In this document: one piece after another, positions 4,011 to 31,644 of the stretch | Numbering within the stretch: the stretch's first letter is position 1 | Layout of the letters: each line of letters opens with the position of its first letter | Source of the DNA: Tistrella mobilis | Lineage (GTDB): Bacteria > Pseudomonadota > Alphaproteobacteria > Tistrellales > Tistrellaceae | Direction of reading: 5' to 3' | Length of the DNA: 64,000 nucleotides | Assembly: GCF_041468085.1 (NCBI RefSeq) | Contig: NZ_CP121017.1 | Span: 3,967,501-4,031,500 of the forward strand | Program-made: the position numbers and the translations under genes | The notes under the pieces: generated by a model | Databases searched by the model: none | Seen by the model: the letters and a program-made list of their open reading frames with translations, nothing else | Told to the model about the DNA's origin: nothing

Positions 4011-5201
4011 TCAGCGACGGCGGAGGGTGAGTGCCGCCGCGATCGCCCCCAGGAACAGCGCTCCTGCTCCGGCGATGAACAGTGGCCGGTGTTCGCCGAA
4101 CACCGCATACCATTCCGTCATCGCGAAACCCGACAGGCTTTGTGCCACAGCGAAGCTCACGGTCATCGCCGCCCAGGCCTGGCGCTGGCGATGCGGGCTC
4201 GCGATTTCGGTGATCCGCCCGGCGACCATCGTCCCCATGCCCGGCGTCAGCAGCCCGACCACCGCAGCACTTGCCGCGAGCGCCCAGGGGGCGGTGGTAA
4301 AGGCGGCGAGGCCGATGGCGGCACCCTTGATGACCAGGCCACCCACCAGGGTGCGTCCGAAACCGATCCGCTCGGCGACCAGCCCGACGGTGATGGGGCC
4401 GAAAGCGGCACCCAGGCCGAACAGGCTCCAGGATGCGCCGGCTGCCGCGAGGCCGAGCCCCAGGGTGCGGGCGACGTAATCCGCCCAGAACAGGGTATGG
4501 GGCACGAAGCCGAAGGCATCGAGAGCATAGGCAAGGCCGACCAGGGCGAGCGCGGCCCCGGTCGCCGCGGGCGGCACGCCCAGATGCCCGCCCCCGACGG
4601 CCGGCCCCGCGGCCTCGCGCGGCCAGCCGTTCCAGCCGACCACGCCCAGCACCAGGGCGAAGACGGTGAGCATGGCCCAGGCCTCGACCACGCCGAAACC
4701 GGCCGCGATCGGCACCAGCTGGCCCGAGACCACCACGCCCAGTCCCACACCGGTAAAGACCAGCCCGGCCACCCGGCCGCGCCGACGGATCGGGGTTGCC
4801 GACAGGGCCGCCGGCACCGCGACGATCATCAGGATGGCGCCGGTGATGCCGCCGATCGCGCGCCAGACCGCCAGCCAGCCATAGCCCAGATGGACGGCCG
4901 AGGCCGCGAAGGAGATCACGGTCAGGGCGATCGCAATCCGGATCAGCATGGCCACCGGCACCCGGCGGGCCAGCGGTGCCGCCGCCAGGGCCCCGGCCAG
5001 ATAGCCGCCCAGATTGACCGCCCCGAGACTTGCCGCCGCCGCGCCGTCATACCACCCGCCCTGGACCAGGGCCGGGATCATCGGCGTATAGGCGAAGCGG
5101 GCAAGCCCCAGACCGATCAGCACCGAGGCGAAGGCTGCCGCGGCTGCCCGCCAGGGGATCCGGTCCTCGTCCGGCGTTGCAGGGTCGCTCGCACTCATCA
5201 T
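4011..5201 (-). CDS. YbfB/YjiJ family MFS transporter
   Basis: About 396 residues with roughly twelve hydrophobic segments. The N-terminal helix FASVLIGLGLARFAYTPMIPAL is the hallmark of the YbfB/YjiJ (DUF1228) branch of the major facilitator superfamily. The start is set at the ATG at 5201, preceded by GGGAG; the further-upstream GTG at 5213 overlaps that ribosome site. Substrate is unknown; members of this branch are poorly characterised exporters or importers. It is a single-gene unit divergent from amiC and convergent with exoD. Confidence 0.8.
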   Translation of the reverse strand: MMSASDPATPDEDRIPWRAAAAAFASVLIGLGLARFAYTPMIPALVQGGWYDGAAAASLGAVNLGGYLAGALAAAPLARRVPVAMLIRIAIALTVISFAASAVHLGYGWLAVWRAIGGITGAILMIVAVPAALSATPIRRRGRVAGLVFTGVGLGVVVSGQLVPIAAGFGVVEAWAMLTVFALVLGVVGWNGWPREAAGPAVGGGHLGVPPAATGAALALVGLAYALDAFGFVPHTLFWADYVARTLGLGLAAAGASWSLFGLGAAFGPITVGLVAERIGFGRTLVGGLVIKGAAIGLAAFTTAPWALAASAAVVGLLTPGMGTMVAGRITEIASPHRQRQAWAAMTVSFAVAQSLSGFAMTEWYAVFGEHRPLFIAGAGALFLGAIAAALTLRRR

Positions 5202-5346
5202 CCGGTCTCCCACACCCAGGCGCGCCGGTACGGTGCCGCGCGCGCGTTTCGTTGGCCGGGATTATGGCCGGCGCCCGGGGGCCGGTGTCGAGCCCGCGAT
5301 ACGGCCCGCTCCGCATGGCTGCCATGCGATCCCGGTGCCGAGCATG

Positions 5347-5375: not shown

Positions 5376-5384
5376 GTTTCCAAC

Positions 5385-5459
5385 GCGGACGACCTCCGCA
5401 GTGTGATTGTGAGCAGGGCAGCTCCCGTCGGCATCTCGTGCCGGCCGGGGGCTTTTTTT
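5385..5459 (+). terminator. amiC leader: ANTAR-like hairpins overlapping an intrinsic terminator
   Basis: Three elements follow the promoter. Hairpin P1 is GCGGA (5385-5389) pairing with TCCGC (5395-5399). Hairpin P2 is GAGC (5411-5414), a six-base loop AGGGCA and GCTC (5421-5424). The terminator pairs AGCTCCCG (5420-5427) with CGGGGGCT (5446-5453) around an inner CGGCA/TGCCG stem and ends in seven T's (5453-5459). The P2 loop has A at position 1 and G at position 4, as in known ANTAR RNA targets. Its 3' strand is the terminator's 5' arm, so the two folds exclude each other. This is the expected layout for AmiR antitermination. P1 has a five-base loop and does not fit the consensus. Confidence 0.7.
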
Positions 5460-5471
5460 ATGTGCAGGGCC

Positions 5472-6635
5472 ATGGGCAAGAGATCGATACCGGATAGCTG
5501 GCGCGTGGGCGTGCTGTTCTCCGACACCGGCGTCACCGCCGCGGTGGAACGTACCCAGCGCCATGGCACGCTGCTCGCGATCGAGGAGATCAACGCCTCG
5601 GGCGGCATCGCCGGCCGGCTGATCGAGCCGGTGGTTCTGGATCCCGCCTCCACGCCCCGGCTCTATCGCGACCAGGCAGAACATCTGCTGGATGTGGAGC
5701 GGGTGCAGGTGATCTTCGGCTGCTACATGTCCAGCACGCGCAAGGCCGTGCTGCCGGTGGTGGAGGCCCGCAAGGCGCTGCTGTTCTACCCCACCCTCTA
5801 CGAGGGCTTCGAATATTCCCGCAGCTGCATCTACACCGGCGCCTGCCCCAATCAGAACTCGGTCCAGCTGGTGAATTATCTGACGGCCCATTACGGCAAG
5901 CGACTTTTCATCGTGGGGTCGAACTACGTCTATCCTTACGAATCCAACCGCATCATCGCCGATCTCTATCTGCAGTCCGGCGGTACCCTGCTGCACGAGA
6001 TGTATGTGCCGCTGGCGGTGGACGAGATCGATATGAACGAGGTCATCGCCCAGATCCGTCGCACCCGGCCGGATGTGATCTACTCGACCGTGGTCGGCGA
6101 CGGCATCGCCCGGTTCTACGAGGCCTATCGTGCCGCAGGCTTCGACCCGGCCACCATGCCCATCGCGAGCCAGTCGACCAGCGAGGCCGAGATCGCCCAG
6201 ATGGCCCCGGGCATCGCTGAAGGCCATATCGGCGTCTCGCCTTATTTCGCCGCGATCGACACCCCCGCCAACCACAGGTTCGTGGCCGCCTTCCGGCGCC
6301 GCTTCGGTGCCGATGCGGTGATTGCGGCGGCGGCCGAAGCGGCGTATTTCCAGGTCCATCTCTATGCAGCCGCCCTCGCCCGGGCCGAAAGCGACCGGGC
6401 GCAGGATCTGCTGCCCCAGCTCTACGAGGTCGAGGTGGATGCCCCGCAGGGCCGGATCCGGATCGAGCGCGACAACAACCACACCCATCTCTGGCCGAAA
6501 GTCGGCCGGGTGACGGCCGCCGGTCAGTTCGACGTGGTCTACGACCCGAAGACCCGGGTCCGCCCCGATCCGTACATGCTGGAATATCGTCTCGACGCCC
6601 CGGCGGCCCATGGCCTGCCGGTGGCAGGCCTCTGA
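5472..6635 (+). CDS. amiC: AmiC-type amide sensor / negative regulator (periplasmic-binding-protein fold)
   Basis: From the ATG at 5472 the product is 387 residues, close to the 385 of Pseudomonas AmiC, and has no signal peptide, so it is cytoplasmic. It opens WRVGVLFSDTGVTA and contains the binding-protein landmarks INASGGIAGR, VIFGCYMSSTRKAVLP, LFYPTLYEGFEYS, GSNYVYPYESN and SPYFAAIDTPAN, shared with UrtA/FmdD solute-binding proteins. AmiC binds short aliphatic amides and releases AmiR to act on leader RNA. The gene is 26 bases ahead of amiR, the conserved order. An alternative ATG at 5460 sits directly on the terminator T-run, with its ribosome site inside the terminator stem. Confidence 0.88.
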   Translation: MGKRSIPDSWRVGVLFSDTGVTAAVERTQRHGTLLAIEEINASGGIAGRLIEPVVLDPASTPRLYRDQAEHLLDVERVQVIFGCYMSSTRKAVLPVVEARKALLFYPTLYEGFEYSRSCIYTGACPNQNSVQLVNYLTAHYGKRLFIVGSNYVYPYESNRIIADLYLQSGGTLLHEMYVPLAVDEIDMNEVIAQIRRTRPDVIYSTVVGDGIARFYEAYRAAGFDPATMPIASQSTSEAEIAQMAPGIAEGHIGVSPYFAAIDTPANHRFVAAFRRRFGADAVIAAAAEAAYFQVHLYAAALARAESDRAQDLLPQLYEVEVDAPQGRIRIERDNNHTHLWPKVGRVTAAGQFDVVYDPKTRVRPDPYMLEYRLDAPAAHGLPVAGL

Positions 6636-6661
6636 CCCTCCTTCACGGGAGCGCCCCCCAC

Positions 6662-7270
6662 GTGTCGGTCGCCCTGCTGCGTGATCTTCTCGGCCTCAAG
6701 GTTCTGGTGGTCCATCCACCGGACGAGGAGGGCGCCTTTCTGGTCGATCATCTCCGGCGCATCGGCTGCATGGTCACCACGCTCTGGCCGGTGCCGGCGG
6801 AGCTGCCGGCCAATGCCGAAGTGGTTCTGCTGACCATCGCGGTGGAATACCGGGCCGAGATCGAACGCCTGCTCAAGGCCATGGGACCGGTACCGCCCAC
6901 CATCATCGCCATCGTCGGCTACGAGGATCCGGGCACGCTCCAGATCGTGCTGGAAAGCGGCGCCTTCGCGGTGCTTGAAAAGCCGCTCAAGCCCTTCGGT
7001 CTGCTCACCAACCTCGCCATCGCCCGCAGCCTGTGGCTGGAACGCCAGCGGCTGCTGAAAGAGGCCCGCAAGCTGCGGCGCAAGATGGTCGGCGAACAGA
7101 CGCTCGCCCGCGCCAAGGCGATCCTGATGGCGTCGAAGAGCCTGAGCGAGAACGAGGCGCATCAGTTCATCCGCCGCCAGGCCATGGCACGCCGGGCACC
7201 GATGGAAGAGATCGCGGCCGCGATCGTGAAGACCGAGGACCTCTTGACCCTGCCCCGCAAAGCTGATTAA
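6662..7270 (+). CDS. amiR: AmiR-type ANTAR transcription antiterminator
   Basis: A 202-residue protein starting with GTG at 6662 (Pseudomonas AmiR is 196). The N-terminal half is a pseudo-receiver fold (VLVVHPPDEEGAFLVDHLRRIG). A central coiled-coil follows (WLERQRLLKEARKLRRKMVGEQ). The C-terminus is an ANTAR RNA-binding domain (ILMASKSLSENEAHQFIRRQAM through IAAAIVKTEDLL). ANTAR proteins bind paired hairpins in leader RNA and prevent terminator formation. The candidate targets are the leaders before amiC (5385-5459) and before the substrate-binding-protein gene (7358-7438). By analogy with AmiC/AmiR of Pseudomonas, AmiC should hold it inactive until amide is bound. Confidence 0.88.
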   Translation: MSVALLRDLLGLKVLVVHPPDEEGAFLVDHLRRIGCMVTTLWPVPAELPANAEVVLLTIAVEYRAEIERLLKAMGPVPPTIIAIVGYEDPGTLQIVLESGAFAVLEKPLKPFGLLTNLAIARSLWLERQRLLKEARKLRRKMVGEQTLARAKAILMASKSLSENEAHQFIRRQAMARRAPMEEIAAAIVKTEDLLTLPRKAD

Positions 7271-7357
7271 CATTCGCGCATGCTCAAGATCTGAGCAGCA
7301 GTCGGCGTCCTCTGAAATCGGGTCACCCGGTATAAATTCAGGCCACGCCGTGCTGCA

Positions 7358-7438
7358 GCCGGAAGAACGGGGATGTTCGACCGGCACGTGGCAAGGATGC
7401 CTCGCAACCCCTCCTTCCGGGGTCTGCGAGGTTTTTTT
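7358..7438 (+). terminator. Importer leader: tandem ANTAR-like hairpins overlapping an intrinsic terminator
   Basis: P1: GCCGG (7358-7362) pairs with CCGGC (7381-7385), enclosing GAAC/GTTC with the hexaloop GGGGAT (7369-7374). P2: GGC (7390-7392), hexaloop AAGGAT (7393-7398) and GCC (7399-7401), extended by two outer pairs across a T-T mismatch. Terminator: CCTCGCA (7400-7406) pairs with TGCGAGG (7425-7431), with an inner ACCCC/GGGGT stem, then seven T's (7432-7438). The P2 3' strand is the terminator 5' arm. P2 has the A1/G4 loop bases of ANTAR targets; P1 has G at position 1. A TATAAA at 7331-7336 could be the -10 box. Confidence 0.75.
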
Positions 7439-7719
7439 ATGCCCACGCCGACAGGGCTGTCGGCATTCACCCTCGACCAGAAAACGAGGCAGACACCCCT
7501 GCGTTCCACTTGAACGCAGCACGGGAGAAATTTGCCTCATGCTCTGCCCGACAGGCGTGAGATCCCTCCACCGACGGCCTTCCTCCCCCCGGATGCCGAC
7601 CGGACATCCCGGTCTTCCGGCGCTTTTTCGACAACGGCTCCGACCCGCGCCACGCGCGCCAAACATCACGGGCAAAAACGCCCGAGGCTTCACCTCACCG
7701 TCATCGGGAGACCGACCCC
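7439..7719 (+). promoter_or_regulatory. Long untranslated segment between ANTAR terminator and importer gene
   Basis: About 280 bases with no supportable gene. It contains several hairpins: GCCGACA/TGTCGGC near 7446-7463, TGCGTT/AACGCA near 7499-7518, and GACCGG (7598-7603) pairing with CCGGTC (7609-7614). The last is followed by an outer GCC/GGC closure and a run of five T's at 7624-7628, which resembles a second, weaker terminator. GGGAG at 7706-7710 precedes the ATG at 7720. Confidence 0.45.
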
Positions 7720-8973
7720 ATGAGCATCACCCGACGCTCGCTGCTGAAATCCACCGCTGCCGCCTCACTTGCCGCCGTCGCCGCCCCCTCGCTGATCGGC
7801 CGGGCGCTGGCCGCCGACACGATCAAGGTCGGCGCGCTCTATTCCCAGACCGGTGGTCTCTCGATCGTCGAGAAGATGCTGGCCGATGCCGTGATGATGG
7901 CGGTCTCGGAAGTCAACGCCCAGGGCGGCGTGCTCGGCCGCCAGGTCGAGGTGATCGTCGAGGACGGCGCCTCGGATCCGAAGACCTTCAGCGAAAAGGC
8001 CTCGAAGCTGCTGGTCCGCGACCGCGTGAACGCGGTCTTCGGCTGCCACACCTCCGCCAGCCGCAAGGCGGTGCTGCCGCTGTTCGAGCGCCGCGACGGC
8101 ATGCTGTTCTACCAGACCCATTACGAGGGCTTCGAGTGCTCGAAGAATGTGGTCTATACCGGCGCGGTGCCGAACCAGCAGCTGGGCAACTACATCCCCT
8201 GGATCGTCAAGACCCTGGGTAAGAAGAAGTTCTTCATCGTCGGCTCGAACTATGTCTACCCGCGTGAGATGGCCAAGGTCAGCAAGAAGCTGATCGAAGA
8301 GGCCGGTGCCGAATGGGTGGCGGACGAGTATCTGGAACTCGGCCATTCCGAATGGGCGACCATGGTCCGCAAGATCAAGGAGTCCGGCGCGGATGTGGTG
8401 CTCTCGAACGTGGTCGGCGACTCGATCGTCGCCTTCTATCGCGAATACAAGAACCAGGGCATGTCCCAGGCCGATGTGCCGATCTGCGCGACCGTGACCT
8501 CCGAGATCGAGATCGCGGCCATGGGCGCCGAATACGCCGCCGGCAGCTACACCTCCTTCCCCTATTTCATGTCGCTCGACACCCCGGCCAACAAGGGCTT
8601 CATCGAACGCTACCGCACCTTCGTGAAGGACCCGGCGGCGCTCACCTATCACTCGCTCGAAGCCGCCTATTTCCAGGTCTTCCTGTGGAAGCAGGCCGCC
8701 GAGAAGGCGGGGTCGGTCAAGGCCGCCGACATCCGCGCCGCGATCGGCGGCCAGAGCTATGACGCACCGGGCGGCAAGGTCACCATCGATGGCGACAATC
8801 TGCACGCCTATCTGACCCCGCGCATCGGCCAGTGGCAGGCCGACGGCCAGAGCAAGGTGGTCAACGCCTATCCTGAGCCGATCCGCCCGCTGCCCTATGC
8901 CGCCTATGGCGAGACCGCGGACAATCTGTTCTGCACCGCCAAGGGCCTCGACAGCGCCAAGCTGAAGGGCTGA
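7720..8973 (+). CDS. urtA: Amide/urea ABC transporter substrate-binding protein (UrtA/FmdD type)
   Basis: A 417-residue protein beginning with a Tat-type signal (TRRSLLKSTAAASLAAVAAP, then GRALAAD). The mature part follows UrtA/FmdD: VGALYSQTGGLSIVEKM, GGVLGRQVEVIVEDGASDP, AVFGCHTSASRKAVLP, FYQTHYEGFECSKNV, GSNYVYPREM, VVGDSIVAFYREYKNQG. It is clearly homologous to the AmiC sensor upstream. No urease genes lie in the window, and the flanking genes are an amide sensor and an amidase, so short amides are the more likely cargo than urea. The symbol reflects the family, not a demonstrated substrate. Expression is probably controlled by AmiR through the 7358-7438 leader. Confidence 0.85.
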   Translation: MSITRRSLLKSTAAASLAAVAAPSLIGRALAADTIKVGALYSQTGGLSIVEKMLADAVMMAVSEVNAQGGVLGRQVEVIVEDGASDPKTFSEKASKLLVRDRVNAVFGCHTSASRKAVLPLFERRDGMLFYQTHYEGFECSKNVVYTGAVPNQQLGNYIPWIVKTLGKKKFFIVGSNYVYPREMAKVSKKLIEEAGAEWVADEYLELGHSEWATMVRKIKESGADVVLSNVVGDSIVAFYREYKNQGMSQADVPICATVTSEIEIAAMGAEYAAGSYTSFPYFMSLDTPANKGFIERYRTFVKDPAALTYHSLEAAYFQVFLWKQAAEKAGSVKAADIRAAIGGQSYDAPGGKVTIDGDNLHAYLTPRIGQWQADGQSKVVNAYPEPIRPLPYAAYGETADNLFCTAKGLDSAKLKG

Positions 8974-9065: not shown

Positions 9066-9959
9066 ATGCTCGACATCCTCTTCATCGGCCTCAGCCTGGG
9101 CTCGATCCTGCTGCTGGTCGCACTCGGCCTCGCCATCACCTACGGCGCCATGGGGGTCATCAACATGGCCCATGGCGAACTGGTGATGATCGGGGCTTAT
9201 ACCGCCGTGCTCTCCGGCATCTGGCTTGATCTGGGGCTGTTCGCGGCCCTGCCGCTCGGCTTCCTGTCGGCGGCAGCCATCGGCTGGGCGATCGAGCGGG
9301 TGGTGGTGCGCCGGCTCTACGGCCGGCTGCTCGACACCCTGCTCGCCACCTGGGGCATCGCAATCCTGCTGCAGCAGGCGGTGCGCCTGGAATTCGGCCT
9401 CAGCTTCTTCGGCATTCACATCCAGGGCCTGGGCCCCGGCCTGCAGAACGTCGCCGTGCCCGAGATCCTGCAGACCACGATCACCATCGCCGGCAGCTCG
9501 ATCAACGCCTACCGGGTGTTCATCGTGGCGGTCACCCTGGTGCTGACCCTGCTCACCTGGGCGATCATGTACCGCACCCGCATCGGCATGCAGGTCCGCG
9601 CGATCATCCGCAACCCGCGCATGGCGGCCGCCTCGGGCATCGACGTCGCCCGGGTCAATGCCCTCACCTTCGCCTTCGGCTCGGGCCTCGCCGGGGTCGC
9701 GGGCGTGATGATGTCGGGCTTCAAGACCGTCTTCCCCGACATGGGCAGTTCCATGGTGGTCGACGGCTTCCTGGTCGTGGTGGCCGGCGGCGTCGGCAGC
9801 CTGCTGGGCTCGGTTCTCTCGGCCGGCATGCTGGGCGAGATCAACGCGGTCGCGGCCGCGGTCACCAATGACATCCTGGCGCGCGCCATCGTCTTCGGAG
9901 TGGTGATCCTGATCATCATCGTGAAGCCGGCCGGCCTCTTCTCGTTCAAGGGGCGCTGA
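9066..9959 (+). CDS. urtB: Amide/urea ABC transporter permease (UrtB type)
   Basis: A LivH/UrtB-family inner-membrane permease of 297 residues with about eight hydrophobic segments. Typical motifs are GLAITYGAMGVINMAHGELVMIGAY at the N-terminus and the coupling-loop region YRTRIGMQVRAIIRNPRMAAASGID near the middle. The ATG at 9066 follows GGTGGAG; the in-frame ATG at 9015 lies inside the intergenic stem-loop and is rejected. It is separated by only three bases from the next permease gene. Confidence 0.88.
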   Translation: MLDILFIGLSLGSILLLVALGLAITYGAMGVINMAHGELVMIGAYTAVLSGIWLDLGLFAALPLGFLSAAAIGWAIERVVVRRLYGRLLDTLLATWGIAILLQQAVRLEFGLSFFGIHIQGLGPGLQNVAVPEILQTTITIAGSSINAYRVFIVAVTLVLTLLTWAIMYRTRIGMQVRAIIRNPRMAAASGIDVARVNALTFAFGSGLAGVAGVMMSGFKTVFPDMGSSMVVDGFLVVVAGGVGSLLGSVLSAGMLGEINAVAAAVTNDILARAIVFGVVILIIIVKPAGLFSFKGR

Positions 9960-9962
9960 GCC

Positions 9963-11081
9963 ATGCGGATGCGTCTCTCGACCACCACCACCCTCCTCGC
10001 CTATCTGGCCTTCGCCGGCCTGGTTCTGGTGGCCCCGGCCTTCCTCGACGATTTCTGGCTGAACCGCATGGCCAAGTATCTGGTCTTCGGCATGCTGGGC
10101 GTCGCCATCTCTCTCTCCTGGGGCTATGCCGGCATCCTCAATCTCGGCCAGGGCCTGTTCTTCGGCTTCGGCGCCTATATGCTCGCCATGTCGCTGAAGC
10201 TCGCGAGCCCGACCAGCCTTGCCCAGGGCTCGGACACGCCGGTGCCGGACTTCATGCTCTGGAATGCCGAGCCCGGTGCACAGACCGATCTCTGCTGCAT
10301 CACCGGCTCGTCCTTCCTGTGGCAGCCCTTCATCTCTCAGGGCTTCGGCATCTTCATGGGGCTGGCCCTGCCGGTGACGGTCGCCTTCCTGCTGGGAATG
10401 GTGGTGTTCCGCAAGCGCATCGCCGGGGTGTTCGTTTCGATCATCACGCTCGCGCTGGTGCTGCTGGTCCGGCTGCTGGTCATCGACGCCCAGCCCTTCA
10501 CCAACGGCTTCAACGGTCTGACCGATCTCGGCTGGCTCACCATCGGCGGCTTCGAATTCGATCCCTACTCGCAGGCCACCTATTATCTGGTCGCCATCAC
10601 CCTGCTGGTGGTGCTGGCCGCCGCCCGGCTGCTGGTCGAAACCCGCGCCGGCCTGGTGCTTCAGGCGATCCGCGACGATGCCACCCGCGCCCGCTATCTG
10701 GGCTTCGACGTGCCGGCCTATCAGATCTTCTTCTTCGCAGTCTCGGCCGGGATCGCGGGGCTTGCCGGCATGCTCTATGTGGTGGTGGCCGAGTTCGCCT
10801 CCCCCACCTTCATGGACCTCGCCTTCTCGATCACCATGGTGGTCTGGGCGGCGGTCGGCGGTCGCTCCAGCCTGCTCGGCGCCTGCATCGGCGCCATCGT
10901 CATCAACATGATCGAGGCCGGCGCCAGCGAGACCGAAGCCCTGGTCGAGGCCTGGAAGGCGGTGATCGGCCTGATCTTCGTCCTGGTGGTGCTGTTCATG
11001 CCGCGCGGCCTGGGCGGTCTTGCCCATGACCTGATCGACCGGGTGAGCGGTGCGACCCGCAAGGCGGAGGGCCGGAAATGA
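9963..11081 (+). CDS. urtC: Amide/urea ABC transporter permease (UrtC type)
   Basis: A 372-residue LivM/UrtC-family permease. It shows LSWGYAGILNLGQGLFFGFGAYMLAM near residue 60 and the coupling-loop segment ETRAGLVLQAIRDDATRARYLGFDVPAYQ in the C-terminal half. A longer loop between helices (about residues 80-120, containing CC) is normal for UrtC. The stop overlaps the next start as ATGA (11078-11081), indicating translational coupling to the ATPase gene. Confidence 0.88.
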   Translation: MRMRLSTTTTLLAYLAFAGLVLVAPAFLDDFWLNRMAKYLVFGMLGVAISLSWGYAGILNLGQGLFFGFGAYMLAMSLKLASPTSLAQGSDTPVPDFMLWNAEPGAQTDLCCITGSSFLWQPFISQGFGIFMGLALPVTVAFLLGMVVFRKRIAGVFVSIITLALVLLVRLLVIDAQPFTNGFNGLTDLGWLTIGGFEFDPYSQATYYLVAITLLVVLAAARLLVETRAGLVLQAIRDDATRARYLGFDVPAYQIFFFAVSAGIAGLAGMLYVVVAEFASPTFMDLAFSITMVVWAAVGGRSSLLGACIGAIVINMIEAGASETEALVEAWKAVIGLIFVLVVLFMPRGLGGLAHDLIDRVSGATRKAEGRK

Positions 11082-11842
11082 CCGCCGGAACCAGACACGG
11101 CATCGCCCTGACCCTCGACGGGCTCGGCGTCTCCTTCGGCGGCTTCAGGGCCGTGGACGAGGTGAACCTCACGGTCGCCGACGGCGAACTCAGGGTGCTG
11201 CTCGGCGCCAACGGTGCCGGCAAGACCACGCTGATGGACCTGATCTCGGGCCGTACCCGGGCCAGTCGGGGCCGCGTGCATCTGCACGAGACCGACATCA
11301 CCAACTGGCCCGAACACCGCATCGCCCGCGCCGGGCTGGGGCGCAAATTCCAGATCCCGAGCGTGTTCCGCGAGCTGACCGTGCGCCGCAATCTGGAGGT
11401 CGCCGCCTTCCGCGCGCCCACCGTCCGGGCAAATCTGGGCTTCGGCCTGGATGCTGCGGGCCGCAGACGCGTGGACGAGGTGCTGGAGCTGACCGGCCTT
11501 ACACAAGAGGCCGATACCGTCGCGGGTTTCCTCAGCCACGGCCAGACCCAGTGGCTGGAGCTGGGCCTGCTGGTGGTGCGCAGCCCGCGCGTGATCCTGC
11601 TCGACGAGCCGACCGCGGGCATGACCCAGGCCGAGACGCTCAAGACCGCGCGGATCATCAACGACCTCAAGGGCAGCCACACCCTGCTGGTGGTCGAGCA
11701 CGACATGGCCTTCGTCCGCGAGATCGCGACCCGGATCACCGTGCTGCATCTGGGCCGGGTTCTGGCCGAAGGCACGGTCGCCGAGATCGAGACCAATGCG
11801 GATGTGCGCGCCGCCTATCTCGGCACGAAGGGGATCGGCTGA
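11078..11842 (+). CDS. urtD: Amide/urea ABC transporter ATPase (UrtD type)
   Basis: A 254-residue LivG-like ATPase. Walker A is LLGANGAGKTTLMDLI (about residues 40-55). The signature segment reads LSHGQTQWLELGLL, where UrtD proteins typically carry SHGQxQWLEIG rather than LSGGQ. Walker B is VILLDEPTAGMT, and the switch His is in VVEHDMAFVREIA. The gene overlaps both neighbours by four bases (ATGA at 11078 and 11842). Confidence 0.9.
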   Translation: MTAGTRHGIALTLDGLGVSFGGFRAVDEVNLTVADGELRVLLGANGAGKTTLMDLISGRTRASRGRVHLHETDITNWPEHRIARAGLGRKFQIPSVFRELTVRRNLEVAAFRAPTVRANLGFGLDAAGRRRVDEVLELTGLTQEADTVAGFLSHGQTQWLELGLLVVRSPRVILLDEPTAGMTQAETLKTARIINDLKGSHTLLVVEHDMAFVREIATRITVLHLGRVLAEGTVAEIETNADVRAAYLGTKGIG

Positions 11843-12537
11843 TGCTGCAGATGTCCGCGATCGACAGCTATTACGGCCGCAGCCATGTGCTGCAGGGTGT
11901 GGCGCTGCAGGCGCCCGCCGGCCGGATCACCGCGGTGCTGGGCCGCAACGGCACCGGCAAGACCACGCTCATGAAGACCATCATGGGCCTTACCGACCGC
12001 ATGTCCGGCAGCATCCGGCTCGACGGCATCGAGATCGGCCACGAGCCGACCTTCCGCCGGGCACGGGCCGGGATCGGCTATGTGCCCCAGGGCCGCGAGA
12101 TCATCCCCGACTTCACGATCCACGAGAACATCCTGATGGGCGCCTTCGCCCGCACCGACGGGCGCATCGAGGTGCCGGCGCTGGTGCCCGAGCTGTTCCC
12201 CTATCTGCCCGAGAATTACGACCGCCGCGGCGGCGTGCTCTCGGGCGGGCAGCAGCAGCAGCTCGCCATCGCCCGGGCGCTGGCCGCCAACCCCAAGCTG
12301 CTGCTGCTCGACGAGCCGAGCGAGGGCATCCAGCCCTCGATCGTGGAAGAGATCCACGCGGTGATCGCGCGGCTCAACCGCGAACACGGGCTCACCGTGA
12401 TCCTGGTCGAACAGAACATCGACTTCGTCCGCGCGGTCGCCCACGGCTTCGTGATGCTCGAAAAGGGCCGCATCGCCGCAGGCGGCCCGATCGAGACGCT
12501 GACCGACGAGCTGGTCCACCGCCACATGGCGGTGTGA
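11842..12537 (+). CDS. urtE: Amide/urea ABC transporter ATPase (UrtE type)
   Basis: A 231-residue LivF-like ATPase starting at the ATG that overlaps the urtD stop. It has Walker A VLGRNGTGKTTLMKTIMG, the YVPQGREIIPDFTI segment typical of UrtE, the signature LSGGQQQQLAIARAL, Walker B LLLLDEPSEGIQPSI and ILVEQNIDF. It completes a five-component importer (binding protein, two permeases, two ATPases). The next gene, the amidase, follows after 58 bases. Confidence 0.9.
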   Translation: MLQMSAIDSYYGRSHVLQGVALQAPAGRITAVLGRNGTGKTTLMKTIMGLTDRMSGSIRLDGIEIGHEPTFRRARAGIGYVPQGREIIPDFTIHENILMGAFARTDGRIEVPALVPELFPYLPENYDRRGGVLSGGQQQQLAIARALAANPKLLLLDEPSEGIQPSIVEEIHAVIARLNREHGLTVILVEQNIDFVRAVAHGFVMLEKGRIAAGGPIETLTDELVHRHMAV

Positions 12538-12595: not shown

Positions 12596-14323
12596 ATGAC
12601 CGAGACGTCCTACAAGGTCGCCGCCGTCCAGTTCGAGCCGACGCTCTACGAGAAGGAGCGCAACATCACCCGCCTCCTCGCCCTGGTGGAGACGGCCGCA
12701 CAGGGCGGCGCGAAGCTGATCGTGACGCCCGAGATGGGGACGACCGGCTATTGCTGGTACGACCGCGCCGAAGTCGCCCCCTTCGTCGAGCCGGTGCCCG
12801 GCCCCACCACCGACCGCTTTGCGGTGCTGGCCCATGCCTATGACTGCTACATCGTCATCGGCATGCCCGAGGTCGACCCTGAAACGAACCTCTATCACAA
12901 CACCGCCGTGCTGATCGGCCCCGACGGCGTGATCGGCCGCCACCGCAAGAGCCATTCCTATATCGCCGAGCCCAAATGGGCGGTGGCCGGCGACGAGCAT
13001 GCGGTGTTCGAAACCCCGATCGGCCGCATCGCCATGCTGGTCTGCATGGACATCCATTTCATCGAGACCGCCCGCCTCGACGCGCTGGGCGGGGCGGACG
13101 TGATCTGCCATATCAGCAACTGGCTGGCCGAGCGCTGCCCGGCGCCCTATTGGATCACCCGCGCCTTCGAGAACGGCTGCTATGTGATCGAGGCCAATCG
13201 CTGGGGGCTGGAGCGGACGGTCGAATTCTCGGGCGGCAGCTGCATCCTCGGCCCCGACGGCACCATGGAGGCGGTGCTCGACTGCGGTGACGGCGTCGTC
13301 TACGGCACGGTCGATCTGGCCCGCGCCCGGGCGCGCAAGGTGCTGGGCGAGCCGGTCTTCACCCAGCGCCGGCCCGCGCTTTATGCCGAGCTGATGACCA
13401 ACACCTTCCTCTGGAACCCGCTCGACTTCTTCCGCCTCTACGGCTATCGCGCCCTGCCCCAGGGCGGCGTGTTCGAGGTTGCGGCGGCGCAGTTCACGCC
13501 GGGCGACGACACCGCCGCCAATCTGGAGCGGGCAGCCTGGCACGCGGCCGAGGCATCGGCCAAGGGCGCCGTGCTGCTGGTCCTGCCGGAATATGCGCTG
13601 ACCGGCACCGCGCCCGCCAATGCCGTCGGGCTCGACGGGCCGGAGATCGCGCGGCTGGTCAACATCGCCATCCGCCACCGCCTCCACATCGTCGCCGGCC
13701 TGATCGAGGCCGAGGGCGAGGCCCGCTATTCGACCGCGGTTCTGGTCGGCCCCGAGGGCATCGTCGGCCGCTACCGCAAGATCCACCTCACCACCGCCGA
13801 GGCCGGCTGGGCGACGGCCGGTGACGAGTGGGCGGTGTTCGACCTGCCTTTCGGGCGGCTGGGTCTGCTGATCGGCCATGACCTCGCCTTCCCCGAGGCC
13901 GGCCGCGTCCTGGCGCTGCGCGGGGTCGACGTGATCGCGGCACCGGCCGCCATCGCCGGGCGGATCTCCTTCGGCCATCCGGGCAGCAAAGTGGCGCAGA
14001 ACCCGCCGATCCCGACCGGCGCCGATCCGCATCACTGGCTGCTGTTCCGGGTGCGGGCGGGTGAGAACAATGTCTGGCTGGTGGCCGCCAACCATATCGA
14101 CGAGGCCGCAGGCTTTGCCGGCAAGAGCGGCATCTTCGGCCCCGACAGCTTCGCCTTCCCCCGCCGCGAAGCCTTCATTCCCGAAGGCGAAGGCCTGGTG
14201 ACCGCGACCATCGATACCGGCACCCTGCCAGGCTCGCCCTATCCCACCAATGTCGTGCGCCGCAAGGATCTGGTCGCCATGCGCCAGGTTCATCACTACC
14301 TGCCGCTGGTCCGGCAGGGCTGA
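12596..14323 (+). CDS. Tandem nitrilase-superfamily amidase; second domain lacks the catalytic Cys
   Basis: A 575-residue protein made of two carbon-nitrogen hydrolase domains. Domain 1 (about 1-285) has the full triad: Glu46 (TPEMG), Lys118 (RHRKSH) and Cys150 (LVCMDIHF). Domain 2 (about 293-570) keeps Glu332 (LPEYAL) and Lys395 (RYRKIH), but the nucleophile position is Gly427 (LLIGHDLAFPE, where active members read CxDxxFPE). Domain 2 is therefore probably a catalytically dead, structural or regulatory copy. The reaction is most likely hydrolysis of a short amide to acid and ammonia, given the AmiC/AmiR sensors and the importer just upstream. Nitrile or N-carbamoyl substrates cannot be excluded. 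Single-domain enzymes of the family are about 260-350 residues. Confidence 0.82.
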   Translation: MTETSYKVAAVQFEPTLYEKERNITRLLALVETAAQGGAKLIVTPEMGTTGYCWYDRAEVAPFVEPVPGPTTDRFAVLAHAYDCYIVIGMPEVDPETNLYHNTAVLIGPDGVIGRHRKSHSYIAEPKWAVAGDEHAVFETPIGRIAMLVCMDIHFIETARLDALGGADVICHISNWLAERCPAPYWITRAFENGCYVIEANRWGLERTVEFSGGSCILGPDGTMEAVLDCGDGVVYGTVDLARARARKVLGEPVFTQRRPALYAELMTNTFLWNPLDFFRLYGYRALPQGGVFEVAAAQFTPGDDTAANLERAAWHAAEASAKGAVLLVLPEYALTGTAPANAVGLDGPEIARLVNIAIRHRLHIVAGLIEAEGEARYSTAVLVGPEGIVGRYRKIHLTTAEAGWATAGDEWAVFDLPFGRLGLLIGHDLAFPEAGRVLALRGVDVIAAPAAIAGRISFGHPGSKVAQNPPIPTGADPHHWLLFRVRAGENNVWLVAANHIDEAAGFAGKSGIFGPDSFAFPRREAFIPEGEGLVTATIDTGTLPGSPYPTNVVRRKDLVAMRQVHHYLPLVRQG

Positions 14324-30670: not shown

Positions 30671-30776
30671 GGGGAAGCGTCTCCGGCGGCGTGATCGGAG
30701 GGGGTTGCCGTAAGCGGCAGGGCGCGCGTATGGTGAGGCGGTCCGCGCCCTTCCGCAAGGCTGGCGGCGGACGATA

Positions 30777-30952
30777 CGTTCTCGGGGCGGGGTGGAAGTC
30801 CCCACCGGCGGTATGCAGACGGGCCCAGGTCCGGCTGCGAGCCCGCGAGCGCCCGCCAGAGGTTTGCGGCCGGTCGGCCGGAACCGATGGCGGGGTCAGC
30901 AGATCCGGTGCGAAGCCGGAGCCGACGGTCACAGTCCGGATGGAAGAGAACG
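30777..30952 (+). ncRNA. FMN riboswitch (RFN element) upstream of ribH
   Basis: The closing stem is CGTTCTC (30777-30783) with GAGAACG (30946-30952). Inside are the conserved RFN blocks GGGGTGGAAGTCCCCACCGG, GAGCCCGCGAGC, the GATCCGGTG...AAGCCGGAGCCGACGGT block and AGTCCGGATGGAAGAGAA. A variable stem-loop occupies about 30860-30895. It senses FMN and should repress ribH when FMN is plentiful. The next 125 bases, to the ATG at 31078, contain GC hairpins (GTCCC/GGGAC at 30962-30975; GGCCGC/GCGGCC at 31001-31016) but no T-run, so control is more likely translational than by intrinsic termination. Confidence 0.93.
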
Positions 30953-31077
30953 GAGAGGCGCGTCCCCGGCGGGACGGGCGGCGGCGTGTCTACATGCCCG
31001 GGCCGCCCGTGCGGCCGAAGGGGCGTTTCCCCGTGCGCCCTGATTCTGGCAAACCGGTATCCTGAATGAGGACCGCC

Positions 31078-31644
31078 ATGAATCAGATCAGTCAGACCAC
31101 CCCCACCACGATCGGCCAGAACGACGAGATCACGCCGCGTTTCGCCGTGCTGCGCGCGCGCTGGCATGCCGATCTGGTCGATCGCGCCGTCGACGGCTTT
31201 ACGGACCGCATGGCCGAACGCGGCATCCCCGCTGCGGCCATCGACGTGATCGACCTGCCCGGCGCCTTCGAAATCCCGCTGGAGGCCAAGCGCATCGCGG
31301 AAGCCGGCCGGCATGTGGCCGTCATCGCGGTGGGCTTCGTGGTCGATGGCGGCATCTACCGCCACGACTTCGTCGCCCGCGCAGTGATCGAGGGGCTGAT
31401 GCGCGTCCAGCTCGACACCGGCATGCCGGTGTTTTCGGTGGTGCTGACACCACATCACTTCCACGAGCATGATGTCCATCAGGCCTTCTTCACCGGCCAT
31501 ATGACCACCAAGGGGCAAGAGGCCGCCGAGGCCTGCCTTGCCACCCCGGCCGTGCGCGACCGGCTGGGCGACCACGCCGCCAGGCCGGACGCCGCCCGGC
31601 CAGACGCCCCCCGGGCCGACGCCCCCCGGGCCGACGCCGCCTGA
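31078..31644 (+). CDS. ribH: 6,7-dimethyl-8-ribityllumazine synthase, type II (RibH2)
   Basis: A 188-residue enzyme joining ribitylaminouracil and dihydroxybutanone phosphate in riboflavin synthesis. The type II signature is clear: GFVVDGGIYRHDFVARAVIEGLMRVQ and SVVLTPHHFHEHDVHQAFF, then MTTKGQEAAEACL. Type II enzymes occur mainly in alphaproteobacteria and form decamers. The ATG at 31078 is seven bases after AGGA; the ATG at 31066 lacks such a site. The C-terminus carries an Ala/Arg/Pro/Asp repeat tail absent from usual homologues. No other riboflavin gene is adjacent, so this is a riboswitch-controlled single gene. Confidence 0.92.
   Translation: MNQISQTTPTTIGQNDEITPRFAVLRARWHADLVDRAVDGFTDRMAERGIPAAAIDVIDLPGAFEIPLEAKRIAEAGRHVAVIAVGFVVDGGIYRHDFVARAVIEGLMRVQLDTGMPVFSVVLTPHHFHEHDVHQAFFTGHMTTKGQEAAEACLATPAVRDRLGDHAARPDAARPDAPRADAPRADAA
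31579..31640 (+). repeat. 15-bp tandem repeats in the ribH 3' end
   Basis: Four degenerate 15-base units encode RPDAA/RPDAP/RADAP/RADAA. Units at 31606-31620 and 31621-31635 are identical (GCCCCCCGGGCCGAC). The array lies in frame just before the stop codon, so copy-number change would only lengthen or shorten the C-terminal tail. Confidence 0.75.

Follow-up and report, generated by a model that had tools for sequence, protein, structure and literature searches.

Two candidate AmiR-responsive leaders and a conserved hairpin beyond the importer terminator in the amiCR-urt locus of Tistrella mobilis

The amiCR-urt locus and its two leaders

The window analysed here, a 64-kb stretch of the Tistrella mobilis genome (contig NZ_CP121017.1), contains the amiCR-urt locus, in which the genes of an AmiC-AmiR amide regulator are followed by those of an importer, urtABCDE, and of a probable amidase (Table 1). 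A leader lies upstream of amiC and another one upstream of the importer operon, and each of them shows an intrinsic terminator that shares a strand with a preceding hairpin, P2. Through these leaders, AmiC-AmiR very probably controls two transcription units by antitermination; AmiR binding, amide as the signal and separate promoters for the units are parts that we infer. A further hairpin, P3, is located beyond the importer terminator. AmiR has AmiR_N and ANTAR domains and adjoins AmiC, as in AmiC-AmiR amide regulators, and it is 98% identical to the AmiR of T. mobilis KA081020-065. Its structure matches are headed by P. aeruginosa AmiR (1qo0 chain D), followed by 6wsh and 1s8n; 6wsh is a response regulator whose companion entry, 6ww6, is an EutV-RNA complex (PMC8934654). 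A search of the whole genome with the ANTAR profile PF03861 gave a single match, AmiR, and because this is the only one, AmiR control of both units would be the simplest reading.

Table 1. Features of the amiCR-urt locus in the window
Feature	Positions	Strand	Evidence or conservation
P1 of amiC leader, gcgga-CGACC-tccgc, 5-nt loop, 11 nt before P2	5385-5399	+	Fold, comparison with relatives
P2 of amiC leader (antiterminator hairpin), gagc-AGGGCA-gctc	5411-5424	+	A1 in 20/21 and G4 in 21/21 leaders
Intrinsic terminator of amiC leader, T7	5420-5459	+	Fold; covariation; leave-out model R1, E 5e-8 in genome
amiC, amide sensor	ATG 5460 or ATG 5472, to 6635	+	PF13433; AmiC crystal structure 1pea, E 2e-109
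amiR, ANTAR antiterminator protein	6662-7270	+	PF21332, PF03861; 1qo0 chain D, E 2e-26
P1 of importer leader, inner gaac-GGGGAT-gttc (7365-7378), outer gccgg/ccggc stem	7358-7385	+	G1 in place of A1, G4 kept
P2 of importer leader, ggc-AAGGAT-gcc	7390-7401	+	G4 in 36/37 leaders; position 1 A 20, T 9, G 8
Intrinsic terminator of importer leader, T7	7399-7438	+	Fold; covariation; leave-out model R2, E 1e-12 in genome
P3, post-terminator hexaloop hairpin, gccgacAGGGCTgtcggc, gccgac-AGGGCT-gtcggc	7447-7464	+	A1/G4; 31/37 leaders; covarying stem
urtA-like importer substrate-binding protein	7720-8973	+	PF13433; TIGR03407 under its cut-off
urtB, urtC, urtD, urtE importer genes	9066-12537	+	TIGR03409, TIGR03408, TIGR03411, TIGR03410
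Tandem CN-hydrolase, probable amidase	12596-14323	+	PF00795, two stretches

The initial annotation had placed a terminator with a run of seven T before amiC and another one before the importer, and the fold energies bear this out. The stem of the amiC leader (5420-5453, T7 at 5453-5459) shows -24.5 kcal/mol and a z-score of -4.25, and that of the importer leader (7399-7432, T7 at 7432-7438) shows -22.3 kcal/mol and a z-score of -4.88. The hairpins described with them, with A at loop position 1 (A1) and G at loop position 4 (G4) of a hexaloop, were also found in both leaders, and the amiR gene lies between the two leaders as had been noted. In each leader the 3' arm of P2 is the 5' arm of the terminator, the overlap that PMC3369931 describes together with the A1 and G4 hexaloop. 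The P2 stem of the importer leader has only 3 bp followed by a T-T mismatch. In the RNAfold structures of the importer P2 and of P3 in the window, A1 and U6 form a pair, so that "hexaloop" is a nominal term for these two hairpins.

A scan of both strands of the window for T-runs of at least five, with a purpose-made stem score, gave three terminators above the threshold, and only these two show the P2 overlap. Shuffling the 30 nt upstream of the terminator recreated P2 in 3.4% (amiC) and 6.6% (importer) of the trials; these single-sequence odds are modest, and therefore conservation is the strong evidence.

Conservation of the leaders in related loci

The AmiR relatives were drawn from named genome contigs, from further genomes, which are samples of larger groups, and from plasmids, where 214 records contain an AmiR relative and 13 of them were examined. 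Duplicates of AmiR DNA or genome (L001, L018, L020, L041, L071, L072, L074-L078 and L111) were dropped. The main set contains 39 distinct loci with an AmiR at least 47% identical. A terminator with P2 is located after amiR, ahead of an importer or amidase-type gene, in 37 of these 39 loci; L121 (AmiR 51%) and L123 (47%) show neither leader by eye and are outside the 37-row set. Before amiC, a terminator with P2 was found in 21 of 38 loci, since L112 has no sequence upstream of amiC, and the leaderless loci were judged by eye. The overlap of P2 with the terminator is also seen in Rhizobiaceae, Comamonadaceae, Amorphus and further relatives.

The P2 loop of the 21 amiC leaders shows A at position 1 in 20 and G in one, G at position 4 in all of them, G (17) or A (four) at position 2, and A (20) or G (one) at position 6; positions 3 and 5 are variable. 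In the post-amiR leaders, whose row-selecting pattern fixed the P2 stem as GGC/GCC and left the loop free, the only exception to G4 is L011, with a 7-nt loop. G4 is thus the firm rule of this set and A1 is not, because A1 is present in only 20 of the 37 post-amiR leaders. This agrees with EutV, which binds single hexaloops and for which G4 is the sole base-specific contact (PMC8934654).

The terminators covary. The post-amiR terminator scores 0.534, against 0.212 when shuffled, with 97 double-change cells against 35, and the amiC terminator scores 0.248 against 0.174, with 22 double-change cells against 11.7. As many of the rows come from closely related organisms, these counts do not represent independent events. 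Covariance models were also built with Tistrella excluded, R1 from alignment A4 (18 rows) and R2 from alignment A5 (34 rows), and searched over the 6.3 Mb genome, scoring the best 150 of 5606 candidates for R1 and the best 150 of 4275 for R2, with rough E-values. R1 ranked the amiC leader top (5379-5459, E 5e-8), with the runner-up at E 0.0028, and R2 ranked the importer leader top (7354-7481, E 1e-12), with the next match at E 0.1. This ranking shows that both leaders are recognisable from their relatives, and not that weaker targets are absent. When 385 genomes of the class were searched with R2 under stricter filters, scoring about nine candidates per genome, three Tistrella genomes gave 59-63 bits, and among the matches listed elsewhere (23 other genomes, E 0.01) none exceeded 28.5 bits. 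With the overlap recurring, the terminators covarying and both leaders ranked first by models that left Tistrella out, the prediction that orthologous leaders would conserve these folds held. The same conservation and model rank, with the single ANTAR match, support the earlier proposal of two separate leaders, one for amiCR and one for the importer-amidase unit. A possible third AmiR target at C4:2151185 (R1 E 0.0028) was rejected, being an ordinary terminator after a small open reading frame (ORF), without P2.

Upstream of P2, both window leaders show another hairpin, P1. The initial annotation had counted one hairpin per leader; its P2 stands and its count does not, given that known ANTAR leaders have two, the upstream one being non-canonical here. 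By the inner stems, the P1-P2 linker is 11 nt in both leaders, within the approximately 5-12 nt expected; counting the outer P1 stem of the importer leader shortens the linker there to 4 nt. The P1 stem of the amiC leader is retained through G-U changes in L002 and L019, with a loop that is not A1/G4. A plain A1/G4 hexaloop is present in P1 of two of the 21 amiC leaders, L010 (gggtc-AGCGCC-gaccc) and L115 (ggatc-AGCGTC-gatcc), L114 and L117 show A1/G4 inside a 7-nt loop, and the remaining 17 show neither form; these assignments were made partly by eye. L010, from Amorphus, and L115 (by eye) show both loops canonical in both leaders. The P1 hairpins of the 37 post-amiR leaders show A (27), G (six) or a gap (four) at loop position 1 and G (24), T (seven) or A (six) at position 4, and 75.7% of their stem cells are paired, with double changes in two pairs. 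No covariation is claimed for the P1 of the amiC leader because MAFFT aligns it unreliably.

In the AmiR tree, the window groups with Rhizobiaceae and Comamonadaceae in a clade of 17 rows (support 100/98), each of which bears the label of an amiC leader and that of P3. On the whole tree, midpoint-rooted, the label "amiC leader" requires three changes. The Comamonadaceae amiCR-urt loci with both leaders (L003-L008, L012 and L096) are nested among alphaproteobacterial rows, and this position suggests a transfer between classes. More distant AmiC-AmiR loci, with AmiR identity of 25-46%, were inspected and kept out of the main counts; several of them have a terminator upstream of amiC, or combine a canonical P1 with a U1-type P2 and lack P3. 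U1-type P2 loops with G4 kept (e.g. TATGTA and TGTGCA) are found in the post-amiR leaders of L045-L049, L051-L053, L097, L101, L105 and L113, and a canonical P1 accompanies them in several. Locus L100, on a Klebsiella michiganensis plasmid, shows an IS5-like element between amiC and amiR.

The hairpin beyond the importer terminator

P3, which the initial annotation missed, starts 8 nt past the T-run of the importer terminator. By a strict count, which takes an A1 and G4 hexaloop, at least four Watson-Crick pairs and a distance of at most 45 nt from the T-run, P3 is present in 31 of the 37 post-amiR leaders, against 0.39 expected from composition shuffles (maximum three in 300 rounds). When all 16 combinations of bases at positions 1 and 4 of the loop are compared, A-G gives 31 and the next best gives three. 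In the 37-row alignment the P3 loop shows G at position 4 in 34 rows and A at position 1 in 31. The stem scores 0.283 against 0.155 when shuffled, with none of 500 shuffles as high and with the rows lacking P3 included, and its paired cells and score are above those of every slid version. A wider set including distant loci gives 24 of 45 against 0.83 expected, a count that includes L023, whose hairpin is unlike P3. After the amiC terminators, P3 was found in none of the 21 leaders. The closing A-U and C-G pairs of P3 are those that mattered in P1 of eutP (PMC3369931).

Since P3 lies past the terminator, it is present only on read-through mRNA, and as it is made after the termination decision it must act later. 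Its distance to the T-run is 7-20 nt across the leaders, and its distance to the next start codon is approximately 75-343 nt in the eight loci with a known start; because the latter varies, a role of P3 as a translation element was considered unlikely.

Antitermination, its alternatives and related systems

In P. aeruginosa, AmiC binds the amide and thereby releases AmiR to the leader (PMC3369931). Without amide, AmiC would retain AmiR and both Tistrella leaders would stop at their terminators, and with amide the free AmiR would stabilise P2, occupying the 5' arm of the terminator. With P2 held, RNA polymerase would continue into amiCR and, separately, into urtABCDE and the amidase gene. After its passage the terminator, far more stable, should displace AmiR from P2, and P3, located a few nucleotides downstream, could catch the displaced protein and keep it on the message. 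Such a capture would leave less AmiR free and so act as a brake on the positive loop made by the amiC leader. Binding of P3 by AmiR is the assumption here. The most likely function for this hairpin, although we hold it only tentatively, is to recapture AmiR displaced on terminator refolding and so to serve as a feedback sink within the target mRNA. Doubtful, but possible, is the complete scheme of a three-hairpin ANTAR leader before the importer, in which P1 and P2 would decide termination and P3 would recapture AmiR, with amiCR in positive feedback and P3 as its brake, a cis version of the EutX sponge.

Several observations weigh against these proposals. P1 is not A1/G4 in either window leader (5-nt CGACC; GGGGAT), and in eutP both hairpins are required (PMC3369931). 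Because of this P1, the window leaders fall short of the strict dual-hexaloop definition of PMC3369931; hence, as judged from sequence, they would work like ANTAR leaders and yet stand outside that definition. The 37 post-amiR P2 loops include nine with T and eight with G at position 1, and the P2 stems are almost invariant, so they give nearly no covariation evidence. No amiC leader is present in 17 of the 38 related loci. The promoter scan gave no match upstream of the amiC leader and one upstream of the importer leader, at 7244-7273, where 0.6 are expected by chance. The consensus scan was less clear, as it listed the amiC terminator only by its inner part and did not list the importer one. 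Weak further targets may have been missed, because only the best 150 candidates were scored and the importer leader, which R1 matches with 17.9 bits in the window alone, is not among the matches listed for the genome. For P3, slid controls match or exceed the double-change cells (14 against 16 at +2) and the pairs (4 against 5 at +1), and the RNAalifold consensus of its alignment is weak, -0.76 kcal/mol. The loci on which P3 was counted are those in which it had first been spotted by eye, and many rows are from near relatives. By the strict count it is absent from six of 37 leaders: L009, L011, L105, L112 and L113 are without P3, and L122 shows a G1/G4 form with a mismatch (by eye). Finally, of the 17 loci that have no amiC leader, 11 show P3 (the strict count gives 10 of them, and L122 is the other). 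P3 can therefore occur apart from the amiCR loop, and a brake as its sole role is weakened.

The main rival for P3 is a post-transcriptional role, in which bound AmiR would shield the importer mRNA, along its long untranslated leader, from Rho or RNases, and read-through transcripts would thereby last while amide is present. The distance kept from the T-run and not from the start codon and the confinement to read-through mRNA fit this role, but no Rho or RNase site was found among the features examined, and we regard it as rather unlikely. That P3 is a functionless relic or duplicate of P1 would explain their nearly identical sequences in L010 and L115; it is improbable, since loci of both alpha- and betaproteobacteria retain A1/G4 on a covarying stem although their remaining loop bases differ.

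Doubts may also be raised about the leaders themselves. With an ordinary terminator before amiC, amiCR could be constitutive and only the importer leader regulated, as the missing promoter-like match upstream of the amiC leader and the loci without this leader would allow. However, the upstream neighbouring gene (4011-5213) is on the opposite strand, no same-strand gene evidently ends there, and every one of the 21 amiC leaders shows the P2 overlap with G4, two having a canonical P1 loop as well, which makes a constitutive amiCR quite improbable. The deviation of the window P1 from the ANTAR rule could instead point to another RNA-binding antiterminator or to a ligand-binding RNA. A reader other than AmiR is very improbable, given that no Rfam family reached its gathering score at either leader (one of the searches was weak) and that the G4 rule, the linkage to amiR and the single ANTAR match favour AmiR.

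The P. aeruginosa amiE leader, compared here by its published description, shares with Tistrella the sensor and antiterminator families (1pea and 1qo0), the amide genes and the terminator overlapped by P2. The described leader precedes amiE (PMC3369931), whereas Tistrella shows one before amiC and one before the importer operon, the latter with P3. That one ANTAR protein serves several leaders is already known, from EutV and the eut terminators (PMC5821096, PMC3369931) and from NasT (PMC6759348). In E. faecalis, EutV serves four leaders, also with dual hexaloops and terminator exclusion, but both hexaloops are A1/G4 there and two-component signalling takes the place of AmiC; a post-terminator hexaloop is not mentioned in the excerpts of PMC3369931 and PMC5821096 consulted. 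The Bradyrhizobium NasT system also has one ANTAR protein and several leaders (demonstrated for nosR, proposed for coxS and nirA), with the nitrate sensor NasS in contrast to AmiC here (PMC6759348). The EutX/Rli55 sponge resembles P3 as an RNA-borne ANTAR site, one that titrates the regulator (PMC5821096). It differs in being a small RNA of its own, with two hairpins and under a B12 riboswitch, whereas P3 is one hairpin carried by the target mRNA and titration by P3 is only proposed. Neither a leader before amiC nor a post-terminator hexaloop was met in the literature searched; the supplementary hit tables of PMC3369931, outside this search, could contain either. If true, the present reading would give an ANTAR wiring unlike the amidase paradigm, in which one protein reads a leader ahead of its own operon and a second leader ahead of the importer operon. 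P3 raises the question of why an ANTAR hexaloop is retained past a terminator on which it can have no influence, and the answer would tell the role of ANTAR proteins after the termination decision.

Among the remaining features of the locus, the amiC start is ambiguous: ATG 5460 directly adjoins the T-run, and ATG 5472 is the alternative. The gap between amiR and the urtA-like gene is approximately 450 nt, and AmiC and the importer substrate-binding protein show 40% identity. In the urtA leader of Tistrella, a terminator-like fold with T5 (T6 in L002) is located at 7581-7627, and the stability of a shorter stretch of it is no better than that of shuffles. In the tandem CN-hydrolase, the first half reads LVCMD, with the Cys at what we take to be the expected motif position, and the second half reads LIGHD; since this replaces the Cys-bearing motif, the second half may be inactive. 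Elsewhere in the window, a flavin mononucleotide (FMN) riboswitch (RF00050) was found at 30774-30955, upstream of the lumazine synthase gene (ORF 31066-31644).

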